Part shown: positions 11,888 to 25,766 of the stretch, in pieces
Layout of the letters: the number at the start of each line of letters is the position of its first letter
Numbering within the stretch: position 1 is the first letter of the stretch
NCBI GenBank assembly: GCA_020848965.1
Contig: JADLHE010000113.1
Span: 1-33,685 of the forward strand
Length of the DNA: 33,685 bases
Origin: Saprospiraceae bacterium
GTDB taxonomy: Bacteria > Bacteroidota > Bacteroidia > Chitinophagales > Saprospiraceae
Direction: 5' to 3'
Translations under genes and position numbers: made by a program
The notes under the pieces: generated by a model
Database searches by the model: none
Told to the model about the DNA's origin: nothing
Seen by the model: the letters and a program-made list of their open reading frames with translations, nothing else

Positions 11888-11918
11888 AAGGATTGAAGGA
11901 TTGAAGGATTGAAGGCTC

Positions 11919-13990: not shown

Positions 13991-14114
13991 GGATGGCAGT
14001 ATGCAGTCCGTTTGAAAGTTGTCTAGTCGGAGCCGAGTTGAACGGCAAGAAACTTAAAGACTGCAAACTACAAGACTGACTGCGAACTGCCAACTGTCAA
14101 ACTGCCAACTTCCA
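13991..14114. repeat. Facing degenerate heptamer arrays upstream of dnaX
   Basis: Left GGCAGTATGCAGTC..., right GACTGCGAACTGCCAACTGTCAAACTGCCAACTTCC ending 2 nt before ATG; GGCAGTATGCAGTC pairs with GACTGCGAACTGCC with 2 mismatches. Confidence 0.7.
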
Positions 14115-14116
14115 AA

Positions 14117-15955
14117 ATGGCTTTCGTAGTATCCGCAAGAAAATACCGTCCCGTACATTTTGAGGATGTCGTTGGGCAAGCACACGTGTCGCAGACGCTG
14201 AAAAAGGCATTGCAGACCGACCACGTAGCGCATGCCTTCCTGTTCTGTGGCCCCCGTGGCGTCGGGAAGACGACCTGTGCCCGCATCCTTGCCAAGGTGC
14301 TCAACTGCCAGAACGTGACGGCCAATTTCGAGCCATGCGGCCAGTGCGAGAGCTGCCGTGCCTTCGCCGAAAACGCCTCTTTCAACATCATGGAACTCGA
14401 CGCCGCCAGCAACAACAGCGTCGAGCATATACGCACCCTCGTGGACCAGGTGCGCTTCCAACCGCAGCAGGGCAAATACAAAATCTTCATCATTGACGAG
14501 GTTCACATGCTCTCGCAAGCGGCCTTCAATGCCTTTTTGAAGACCTTGGAAGAGCCGCCGAGCTACGCCATTTTCATCCTCGCCACCACCGAGAAGCACA
14601 AAATCATCCCGACCATCCTCAGCCGCTGCCAGATTTTCGACTTCAAGCGGATACAGGTCGGCGACACGGTGGCGCATTTGCAAAAAATCTGCGACGCCGA
14701 AGGCATCGAGGCCGAGGGCGACGCCCTGCACATCATCGCCCAAAAAGCCGATGGCGCCCTGCGGGACGCACTTTCCATTTTCGATAGAATTACCAGTGCC
14801 TCCGGCAAAAAAATAACCTACGAAGACGTCATCACCAACCTGAACGTCCTCGATTACGACTACTTCTTCCGCCTCACCGACGCCCTGCTCACCGAGGATT
14901 TGCGGCAAGTGCTGCTCATCCACAATTCGGTGCTGCGCAATGGTTTCGAGGGCGACCATTTCATCAACGGCCTTGCGGAGCACCTGCGCAACCTGCTCGT
15001 GTGCAAGGACCCCGAAACGCTCCGCCTCCTCGAAGTGAGCGACAACCTGCGGGAACGCTACCGCCAACAGGCCGCCTTGGCCCCGGCTTCCTTCCTGCTC
15101 ACCGCCCTCAACCTCTGCAACGACTGCGACATCAACTACAAAATGGCCCGCCAGAAACCCCTGCACGTGGAGCTGTATTTGATAAAAATGTGCTACGCAA
15201 ACCAAGCGGTACAACTCGCAGCGGGCGGTCAGCAGCCAGCAGTTGGGGCTGAAAAAAAAACTCCTGACCTGAGCAAATCAGTGGGCAGTTCGTCAGTGGG
15301 CAGTGGGCAGTCAGTGCCTACCAATATTACTAGTTCTAATTTTAAACAGCAAGAAACAGCCCAACCGCCATCAAATGGAGCACCTGCGCCGGGTTATGCA
15401 GAGGTCGTGCCACCCCTGCCCGTCGAAACGGTCACGGTGAAAGAGCCGGCCATTGAGCCAGTTGCACCGCCACAAACTGGCCTGCTGCGCAAAACAGGCA
15501 TTCCGGGCCTTTCCGCAGTTTCATTGCAGAGCATCCACGAAGAAATTGCGGAGCAAGAAGCCAACGATGGCCCTGTGCAAGAAGCAAAGTTGACGCTCGA
15601 AGACCTGAAAGAAGCTTGGGCTGCCTATATTGATTCCCTCGACAAAGATTCGGTGAAGAACATCCTGCGGGGTGCCGACATAGACATCAACCCAGAGCAG
15701 GTGACGGTGACGGTAGGCTCTGCCCTTGCGGAAAACACCGTGCGGCAGGAAATGGGCCTGATGGAGTTCCTTCGGAAACAGCTTCATGCGCCACTGCTTG
15801 CCTTGTCCATCAAGCTAGACCCCAGCCGCTCCAATGCTGCCCCAGCCAAGCCCAAGCGCTTGACCGACAGCGAGAAATACCATGCCATGCGGGCCGTGAA
15901 CCCCTTGGTGGACGAGGTGAGGAAGCGGTTCGACCTTTCTTTGGAGAACGAATAA
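14117..15955 (+). CDS. dnaX: DNA polymerase III subunit gamma/tau
   Basis: 612 aa; GPRGVGKTTCARILAK, IIDEVHMLS, LEEPPSYAIFILATTEKHKIIPTILSRCQ. Confidence 0.97.
   Translation: MAFVVSARKYRPVHFEDVVGQAHVSQTLKKALQTDHVAHAFLFCGPRGVGKTTCARILAKVLNCQNVTANFEPCGQCESCRAFAENASFNIMELDAASNNSVEHIRTLVDQVRFQPQQGKYKIFIIDEVHMLSQAAFNAFLKTLEEPPSYAIFILATTEKHKIIPTILSRCQIFDFKRIQVGDTVAHLQKICDAEGIEAEGDALHIIAQKADGALRDALSIFDRITSASGKKITYEDVITNLNVLDYDYFFRLTDALLTEDLRQVLLIHNSVLRNGFEGDHFINGLAEHLRNLLVCKDPETLRLLEVSDNLRERYRQQAALAPASFLLTALNLCNDCDINYKMARQKPLHVELYLIKMCYANQAVQLAAGGQQPAVGAEKKTPDLSKSVGSSSVGSGQSVPTNITSSNFKQQETAQPPSNGAPAPGYAEVVPPLPVETVTVKEPAIEPVAPPQTGLLRKTGIPGLSAVSLQSIHEEIAEQEANDGPVQEAKLTLEDLKEAWAAYIDSLDKDSVKNILRGADIDINPEQVTVTVGSALAENTVRQEMGLMEFLRKQLHAPLLALSIKLDPSRSNAAPAKPKRLTDSEKYHAMRAVNPLVDEVRKRFDLSLENE
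15251..15272 (+). promoter_or_regulatory. Candidate A9 slippage/frameshift site in dnaX
   Basis: G-A9-CTCCTGACCTGA; -1 frame stops at 15265-15267, +1 frame stops at 15270-15272. Confidence 0.6.
15279..15316 (+). repeat. Degenerate (CAGTGGG)n heptamer repeats inside dnaX
   Basis: CAGTGGGCAGTTCGTCAGTGGGCAGTGGGCAGTCAGTG. Confidence 0.75.
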
Positions 15956-17898: not shown

Positions 17899-17902
17899 AA
17901 TA

Positions 17903-17920
17903 GGGATGAGGGATGAGGGA
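17903..17920. repeat. (GGGATGA)n heptamer repeat 4 nt upstream of the 17898 start codon
   Basis: GGGATGAGGGATGAGGGA. Confidence 0.75.
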
Positions 17921-18167: not shown

Positions 18168-20129
18168 ATGACCACCGACGACTATAAAAAGCTCCTGCCC
18201 AACTGGCCCCACGACCCTGGGGTCTATCGCTTCCTCGACAGCGAGGACCGGGTGCTCTATGTCGGCAAGGCCAAAAACCTCAAGAACCGACTCTCCTCCT
18301 ATTTTTCGAACACCAAGGACATGGCCTACAAGACCCGTGTCATGGTGAAGCACGCCCACCGCATCGAAATGACGCTGGTGGACACCGAGGCGGATGCCCT
18401 GCTGCTCGAAAGCACGCTCATCAAACGCTTCCAGCCGCCGTACAACGTGATGCTGAAGGACGGCAAGAGCTACACCTACCTCTGCATCAAAAACGAGCGG
18501 TTCCCAAGGGTATTCCTCACCCGAAGGGTCATCCGGGATGGCTCGACCTACTTCGGTCCGTACACCTCCAAGTTCAGGGTGGAAACCATTCTGGACTTGA
18601 TAAAACAGCTCTTCCCGCTGCGCACCTGCAACCTCAGTTTGACAGAGGAAAACATTGCCCGTGGCAAGTTCAAGGTCTGCCTCGAATACCATATCAAGAA
18701 CTGCCAAGGCCCCTGCGAGGGCTTCGAGACGGAGGAGAACTACAACGATAAAATCGAACAGATAAAGAACATGCTGCGGGGCAATTTCGGCCCAGTGAAG
18801 CGGCATTTCCAGCAGCTGATGGCGCACCACGCCGAGCGCATGGAGTTCGAAAAAGCCCAGCAAATCAAGGAGAAACTGCTCGCCTTTGAGGACTATCAGG
18901 GCAAGAGCACCGTCGTGAGCACCACCATCCGGGACGTGGACGTGTTCAGCATCGCCAGCGACGAAAAGAACGCCTACGTGAACTACATCAAGGTGGTGAA
19001 CGGTGCCATCATCAACACCTGGACGCAGGAAATGGTCAAGAACCTCGACGACGACGAGGCCGACCTGCTGGCCTTCGTGCTGCCCGAAATCCGGGAGCGG
19101 TTCCAGAGCATCGCCCCGGAGGTGATTGTCCCGATGGAAATCCCCGTGACCGACCCGACCGTGACCGTCACCGTCCCGAAAATCGGCGACAAGAAAAAGC
19201 TGCTGGAGCTTTCGGAGAAGAACGTGCATTTTTTCCTCCTCCAAAAAAAGAAGGAAGAAGCCTCGGCAACAGGCAAGCAGACCAGCGCCGAGCGCATCCT
19301 GCGCACCCTCCAGAGCGACCTCCAGATGGCCGACGTACCGCTGCACCTCGAGTGTTTCGACAACTCGAACATGCAGGGCAGCTACCCCGTGTCGTCATGC
19401 GTGGTGTTCAAGAACGCCAAGCCCAGCAAGGGCGACTACCGCCATTACAACGTGAAGACCGTCATTGGCCCCAACGATTTTGCCACAATGGAGGAGGTCG
19501 TTTACCGAAGGTACAAGCGCCTCTTGGCCGAAGGCCAGCCCCTGCCGCAGCTCATCATCATTGACGGCGGCAAGGGCCAACTCGGTGCCGCCGTTAAAAG
19601 CCTCGAAGCACTTGGAATAAAAATCAGGGATGAGGGACGAGGGATGAGGGGTGAGTCAGGGATGAGGAATCAGGAATCAGGAATGAAGGGTGACACTGGG
19701 GCTATCATCCCTCATCCCTCACCCCTCATCCCTGAAGTGACTGTCGTTGGCATTGCGAAGCGCCTCGAAGAAATCTTCTTCCCCGGCGACTCGGTGCCGC
19801 TGTACATCAATAAAAAATCGGAGAGCCTGAAGCTCATCCAACAGGCCCGGAACGAGGCGCACCGCTTTGCCATCACCTTCCACCGCAACCAACGCTCGAA
19901 GGACTTCACCAAGACGGAACTCGAAGACATCCCCGGCATCGGCACGAAGACCGCCGAGAAGCTGCTCAAGCATTTTGGTTCGGTGAAAAAAATGCGGGAG
20001 GCCACGGCGGAGGAAATCGAAAGGGCGATTGGGAAGGGGGCAGCGAAGAAGGTGGAGGGGTATTTTCGGGCGGAGGAGGAAGGGGAGGAAGGGGAGGAAG
20101 GGGACTCAACTTTACCTAAATCCACTTAA
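18168..20129 (+). CDS. uvrC: Excinuclease ABC subunit C
   Basis: 653 aa; GIY-YIG region PGVYRFLDSEDRVLYVGKAKNLKNRLSSYF, LECFDNSNMQGSYPVSSCVVF, IIDGGKGQLGAA, C-terminal HhH LEDIPGIGTKTAEKLLKHFGS. Confidence 0.97.
   Translation: MTTDDYKKLLPNWPHDPGVYRFLDSEDRVLYVGKAKNLKNRLSSYFSNTKDMAYKTRVMVKHAHRIEMTLVDTEADALLLESTLIKRFQPPYNVMLKDGKSYTYLCIKNERFPRVFLTRRVIRDGSTYFGPYTSKFRVETILDLIKQLFPLRTCNLSLTEENIARGKFKVCLEYHIKNCQGPCEGFETEENYNDKIEQIKNMLRGNFGPVKRHFQQLMAHHAERMEFEKAQQIKEKLLAFEDYQGKSTVVSTTIRDVDVFSIASDEKNAYVNYIKVVNGAIINTWTQEMVKNLDDDEADLLAFVLPEIRERFQSIAPEVIVPMEIPVTDPTVTVTVPKIGDKKKLLELSEKNVHFFLLQKKKEEASATGKQTSAERILRTLQSDLQMADVPLHLECFDNSNMQGSYPVSSCVVFKNAKPSKGDYRHYNVKTVIGPNDFATMEEVVYRRYKRLLAEGQPLPQLIIIDGGKGQLGAAVKSLEALGIKIRDEGRGMRGESGMRNQESGMKGDTGAIIPHPSPLIPEVTVVGIAKRLEEIFFPGDSVPLYINKKSESLKLIQQARNEAHRFAITFHRNQRSKDFTKTELEDIPGIGTKTAEKLLKHFGSVKKMREATAEEIERAIGKGAAKKVEGYFRAEEEGEEGEEGDSTLPKST
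19623..19735. repeat. In-frame palindromic heptamer-repeat element inside uvrC
   Basis: Left arm atcaGGGATGAGGGACGAGGGATGAGGGGTGAG, right arm ATCATCCCTCATCCCTCACCCCTCATCCCTGA; encodes RDEGRGMRGESGMRNQESGMKGDTGAIIPHPSPLIP. Confidence 0.85.
20076..20102 (+). repeat. Three perfect 9-bp copies (GAGGAAGGG) at the uvrC 3' end
   Basis: GAGGAAGGG x3, encoding acidic EEGEEG. Confidence 0.85.
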
Positions 20130-24365: not shown

Positions 24366-24400
24366 CCGTCCACCGACTACCGTCCACCGTCCACCGATAA
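24366..24400. repeat. Five heptads directly upstream of the Cys/Met enzyme start
   Basis: CCGTCCA-CCGACTA-CCGTCCA-CCGTCCA-CCGATAA-AG-ATG. Confidence 0.8.
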
Positions 24401-25667: not shown

Positions 25668-25680
25668 GCAGGGTTTATAA

Positions 25681-25766
25681 TTGTTTGATTGTTAATTTGT
25701 TATGATTGTTAGCGGCGCTCCGCAACAATCCAGCAATTCCAACAATCCAGCAATCCAACAATTTTT
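25681..25766. repeat. Facing octamer arrays around a perfect hairpin core, upstream of the helicase gene
   Basis: Core GATTGTTaGCGG-CGCT-CCGCAACAATC (25704-25730) flanked by AACAATCA-type octamers in inverse orientation. Confidence 0.8.

Follow-up and report, generated by a model that had tools for sequence, protein, structure and literature searches.

An in-frame heptamer-repeat hairpin in uvrC of a Saprospiraceae bacterium, probably a copy of a dispersed gene-trailing repeat

The DNA analyzed here, called the window, is a 33,685-nucleotide stretch of contig JADLHE010000113.1 from a Saprospiraceae bacterium (assembly GCA_020848965.1, designated G000). It contains an intact uvrC gene, and within this gene lies a hairpin made of seven-base repeats. 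The features considered are listed below.

17902-17920, plus strand: single short GGGATGA array, the other family member in the window, between divergent genes
18168-20129, plus strand: uvrC, intact, 653 amino acids, matching TIGR00194, with Pfam UvrC RNase H, GIY-YIG, and HhH domains
19620-19736, plus strand: net insert in uvrC, 117 nt, 39 amino acids, codons K485-E523, delimited by comparing its codons with those of genus members and of about 90 other Bacteroidota
19624-19654, plus strand: G-rich arm of GGGATGA-type units
19656-19686, plus strand: second, more degenerate G-rich array (GGGATGA, GGAATCA, GGAATCA, GGAATGA)
19705-19735, plus strand: C-rich arm of TCATCCC units, translated as IIPHPSPLIPE

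Against TIGR00194, the UvrC model, the uvrC reading frame scored 505 bits (cut-off, 285). D398, D466, and H565 were invariant in an alignment of 17 homologues, and they align with the known catalytic residues of UvrC (Asp, Asp, and His). K485-E523 stands where close relatives have a three-codon LDK loop, a net gain of 36 codons. The inverted arms (31 nt) are 90% complementary, and Tandem Repeats Finder reported period-7 arrays at 19626-19655, 19656-19684, and 19705-19733. With one mismatch or fewer, GGGATGAGGG occurred 10 times in the window versus 1.9 expected, and none of 100 shuffles reached 10. In the G-rich arm, the unit with a potential in-frame TGA reads GGGACGA; the C-rich strand of the repeat has no stop in any frame. 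A preliminary description of this DNA had reported GGGATGA-type inverted heptad arms in frame within uvrC. The sequence, arms, arrays, and open frame all confirmed that this hairpin within an intact uvrC is real. The proposed insert of about 113 bp (19623-19735) was correctly located, and relatives refined its limits to 19620-19736. The upstream heptamer copy noted at 17903-17920 was also present, as a single short array 4 bases from a minus-strand gene. Separately from the hairpin, a 9-base in-frame array near the 3' end of uvrC (20075-20104, GGAGGAAGG x 3.3) codes for an acidic EEEGEEGEEG-like tail.

Twelve genus genomes had a readable uvrC (G006 did not). The insert was present at the same codon in four of them (G000, G007, G009, and G012) and absent from eight, including G001 and G004 (93% identity). 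About 90 UvrCs from other Bacteroidota had none at that point. Because three other genus genomes have an insert at the identical codon, the assembly is unlikely to be at fault. The comparison across relatives also rejected a conserved UvrC domain, in keeping with the insertion read in the preliminary description. This distribution suggests that the insert is recent and occupies a tolerated loop. The four inserts share one insertion point, but their sequences differ in each species: those in G009 and G012 are GGGATGA-type, and that in G007 consists mainly of CCTCTCAC-type repeats. A tree of four proteins placed G006 with G000, followed in order by G007, G004, G009, G012, G001, and G008. Taken with the insert distribution, this order implies either that the insert was gained once and then lost from G004 or that it was gained several times. 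Where most other relatives without an insert read ILDK or similar, G004 reads LLGQ, which would fit an insert loss that left a scar.

In the solved Thermotoga UvrC domain, the positions flanking the insert are three residues apart, and mapping onto this structure supported the earlier suggestion of a surface-loop insertion. A predicted model of the whole protein was only moderate (mean pLDDT, 67.8; pTM, 0.35). In it, residues 490 to 520 were unstructured (pLDDT below 50), between a helix (468-481) and a strand (523-529) with pLDDT values of about 74 to 87. The insert is most likely a passive disordered surface loop.

The G000 assembly contained 108 matches to GGGATGAGGGATGA and none to a reversed control. 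We read copy sites region by region, assigning them as genic or intergenic with a home-made gene caller. Of 48 sites inspected, 36 were intergenic and 12 were intragenic, even though the gene caller scored about 87% of the window as coding. A stop codon was usually no more than a few tens of bases from an intergenic copy, which mostly lay just 3' of it. Only two intergenic sites were in divergent-gene intervals, and none of the 18 intergenic palindromes was between divergent genes. The order was G-rich arm, loop, C-rich arm in all 22 palindromes. Exactly four units made up 38 of 58 arms, and perfect arms contain four GGG runs with four-base gaps. Most elements had loops of 5 to 28 nt, and every loop was different.

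In a sample of relatives, at least one GGGATGAGGGATGA copy was found in 10 of 13 other genus members. Outside the genus, 2 of 47 sampled genomes had it, with one copy each. The element is a dispersed heptamer-repeat family of one Saprospiraceae genus, and the genome search and site positions bore out the earlier view that an intergenic-type repeat is now part of a repair gene. Three consecutive GGGATGA units were found in only 4 of 398 genomes searched across the phylum. Two of these are distant Bacteroidota (G217 and G294, with 37 and 43 three-unit matches), and nearly all other genomes had none. Therefore, the distribution of GGGATGA is patchy. G003 contained 650 GGGATGA doublets and G005 contained 176; the reversed pattern (AGTAGGG), a second abundant heptamer, had 745 and 138 matches in them, respectively.

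Besides UvrC, in-frame copies in G000 were in UvrA, PheT, an Fdh-alpha/NuoG-like subunit, a hybrid histidine kinase, an SNF2 helicase, a xylulokinase-like kinase, an ABC-2 permease, a helicase, and an amidase. The remaining two of the 12 intragenic sites were at gene ends. An in-frame copy was also present in ABC exporters of G009 and G012. In PheT, the repeat stands in for a linker of nearly equal length, and the Fdh-like insert was confined to G000, G006, and G009. One UvrA loop carried GGGATGA hairpins in G000, G004, G006, and G009 and a different in-frame palindrome (PLTPKGG...PPLGVRG) in G001 and G007 (L195 and L204). G011 and G002 had further insert types there, and the one in G011 (L205) was palindromic (SPPEGG...SFGGGWG). 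Two histidine kinases that are 41% identical, L179 of G000 and L186 of G008, had GGGATGA inserts in the same ATPase-domain loop, suggesting that a permissive site was hit independently in each.

In all three frames, a perfect GGGATGA array presents a TGA at 21-base intervals, whereas its complement has no stop codon in any of them. All eight single intragenic arrays read as the C-rich strand. In the G-sense units of palindromic coding copies, the in-frame TGA was intact in 0 of 22 cases, a count that is partly automatic since open genes were chosen and that includes non-independent orthologues. The out-of-frame TGA was intact in 46 of 55 cases in these copies, and the intergenic TGA was intact in 80 of 107. 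Altered in-frame units had various substitutions (CGA, TCA, ACA, AGA, TTA, and others). The informative part of this count is that mainly the in-frame position was altered, and by several substitutions.

The GGGATGA hairpin is a Saprospiraceae variant of known G-rich heptamer repeats. Heptamers of Xanthomonas and Nostoc (GGGAATC or GGGGA(C/T)T) have a four-unit mode and avoid divergent regions; the two Xanthomonas species have 70 to 75 inverted pairs, 89 to 93% of the repeats there are intergenic, and the authors connect the four units to G-quadruplexes (PMC4692102). The family described here shares with them a dispersed seven-base unit with a G run, the preference for four units, many close convergent inverted pairs, a mostly intergenic location shortly 3' of genes, and the avoidance of divergent regions. 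However, GGGATGA is outside GGGANTN and GGGGA(C/T)T, which makes it a repeat of the same kind but a different repeat. Its hosts are in the phylum Bacteroidota. A quarter of the sites inspected in G000 are intragenic, in frame in core enzymes, compared with 7 to 11% in Xanthomonas (PMC4692102), and relatives have other units at orthologous sites. Several of these other units have no GGG runs, so G-quadruplexes are not the whole reason for the arms.

Three other systems invite comparison. TAACTGA heptamer repeats of Beggiatoaceae, some Cyanobacteria, and five Bacteroidetes (PMC4679880) are likewise dispersed arrays with a patchy distribution, stop codons in one orientation, and reversed intragenic copies. 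They differ in being direct repeats ahead of start codons, essentially unpaired as palindromes (one case). Rickettsia palindromic elements (RPEs; Ogata 2000, 2002, as cited in PMC10969869) are palindromic repeats in frame in unrelated housekeeping genes. The in-frame palindromes in UvrC, UvrA, Fdh-alpha-like proteins, histidine kinases, and ABC exporters resemble that description, and RPEs are, by analogy, the closest precedent for such insertions. The likeness drawn in the preliminary description holds for the outcome but apparently not for membership: RPEs form families of about 150 bp with a conserved peptide, whereas these are heptamer arrays of the Xanthomonas/Nostoc kind whose length and loop vary and whose unit can differ from one species to another. 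REP elements with RAYT transposases (PMC3733652) are also short palindromes behind genes, but here the arms are tandem heptamers. We found no description of such repeats in Saprospiraceae in the part of the literature searched.

To examine orthologous intergenic sites, we searched four relatives with the joined flanks of 15 intergenic palindromes and read 41 intervening stretches. A strong hairpin (z of -3 or lower) was present in 30 of the 41, with GGGATGA in five and other sequence in 25. Often it was built from a different 7- or 8-base unit, such as GGTATGA in G007, AAATTGG and AATTGTTG in G006, or an AATTGAT-like unit in G004. The 5' arm had more G than C in 28 of the 30. Matched controls were ordinary intergenic stretches of the genus (45 to 160 nt), of which 30/124 tandem and 27/42 convergent ones reached the same threshold. 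Sites between tandem genes exceeded these controls (22/31; P = 2.5e-6), whereas sites between convergent genes had no clear excess (8/10 versus 64%). Period-7 or period-8 repeats were enriched at orthologous sites (18/41 versus 16/146; P = 8.5e-6). Short intergenic regions make some positional coincidence expected, so these results support persistent repeat-bearing positions and do not prove direct exchange.

We consider it likely, with a probability of roughly 0.78, that the uvrC insert is a copy of the dispersed gene-trailing heptamer hairpin, tolerated in a loop and then diverging in each species. The normal hairpin would have about four GGGATGA units, a short loop, and about four TCATCCC units, directly behind genes. 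A copy would have arisen in, or been copied to, the three-residue UvrC loop of the RNase H domain that connects the helix following the GGKGQ motif to the strand after it, in an ancestor shared by part of the genus. It may have survived because this is a surface loop, the C-rich arm can be read through in all frames, and units with an in-frame TGA were altered. Gain, loss, and substitution of units would then have changed it rapidly, taking a different course in each species. The arrays themselves might arise by slippage together with break repair or template switching, and be copied occasionally from one locus to another. However, the presence of one unit at about 50 places calls for a copying route, and we found none; the sharp four-unit mode is also unlike the outcome of free slippage. 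Two ideas about their history were set aside. A mirror test of template switching keeping the arms of one element alike gave a weak signal (P = 0.027), and loops were not conserved between species, so a template-switch history is not demonstrated. The Fdh-like gene, in which NGTN is kept as NGTSN, prompted the idea that loops are retained host sequence. We dropped this rule because orthologous intergenic loops did not resemble each other more than permuted loops did (P = 0.35).

Another account, possible but doubtful, is that every array was born locally by seven-base slippage on site, without movement between loci. Unbiased samples had 11.5 period-7 arrays, of many units, per 100 kb in G000 and 11.0 in G007, compared with 1 to 2.5 in G004, G003, and G009 and 0.3 in Sphingobacteria/Flavobacteria. 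Periods other than 7 were rare in G000 and G007. Polymerase slippage has also been suggested to favour seven-base units (PMC4692102). However, independent births are not expected to repeat one unit, and dozens of unrelated sites share GGGATGA, with four units as the mode, while so few genomes of the phylum contain its three-unit arrays. Because the period-7 arrays comprise many different units, there are two puzzles: why seven-base arrays tend to form, and how particular units became dispersed.

It is also conceivable, though improbable, that hairpins are actively written in this lineage behind genes and sometimes inside them, with the G-rich arm leading and about four heptamers in each arm, so that species keep a hairpin at a given position but replace its unit completely. 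If so, such replacement would mean a templated repeat-adding or repeat-swapping machinery rather than neutral slippage.

There is a similarly small chance that the hairpin works on RNA within uvrC, slowing or ending transcription or translation. The uvrC hairpin stretch folds as RNA at -64.6 kcal/mol (z = -6.6 versus shuffles), and family members are located at gene 3' ends, as terminators are. However, the gene portion 3' of the hairpin is well conserved, and only 2 of 28 flanks of intergenic members contained TTTT. The intergenic hairpins mostly have no T-run and are therefore not classic intrinsic terminators. They may still have a role at 3' ends.

Mobilization of a REP- or MITE-like palindrome by a Y1 (RAYT-type) transposase is less probable again. 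Y1_Tnp genes were found in 13 of 14 genus genomes, with three in G000, and REPs are likewise located behind genes. However, the flanks of the best Y1 gene of G000 (L273) contained no GGGATGA, and gene number was unlinked to repeat number: G010 has eight Y1 matches and no doublets, whereas G003 has two Y1 matches and its 650 doublets. In these comparisons Y1 genes showed no association with the repeat, and this reading was set aside. No target duplication was noticed by eye, and no core common to the elements was found, since each site has its own loop. The statement in the preliminary description that the repeat had "invaded" uvrC is thus sound in that a copy is within the gene. It need not imply a mobile element with its own sequence, given these loops, the lack of a duplication visible by eye, and the other heptamers of relatives at orthologous places.

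A new selected function in UvrC, such as partner binding or nuclease tuning, is very unlikely: the frame is preserved in four species and UvrA of the same pathway also has an insert in several of them, but the four sequences all differ (LEALG to VTVVG spans 33 to 60 residues), G004 has no insert, the peptides GMRDE and PHPSSLIP also occur in unrelated proteins, and the insert is predicted to be disordered. A passive surface loop would be the simplest reading, and as far as can be seen, the effect of the insert on UvrC is ordinary.

The interest of the finding is in how heptamer hairpins persist, change, and enter genes. Bacteria beyond Rickettsia also take noncoding repeat hairpins in frame into core enzymes, and closely related species offer a series of states: empty, inserted, altered, and with a different unit. 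The change of unit at conserved positions makes the origin and spread of bacterial heptamer repeats testable.

Other units were seen elsewhere. At 25680-25762, between two plus-strand genes of the window, is a repeat-armed hairpin with a different unit (ATTGTTTG / CAACAATC). More 7- and 8-base arrays of other units are at 11888-11915, 14079-14115, 15279-15311, and 24366-24396; units of such arrays in the window include AAGGATTG (in an array that begins directly after a stop codon), ACTGCCA, CAGTGGG, and CCGTCCA. In L352, long CGGTTGA-type and CCACCGA-type arrays (857-934 and 1117-1227) face each other about 180 bases apart.
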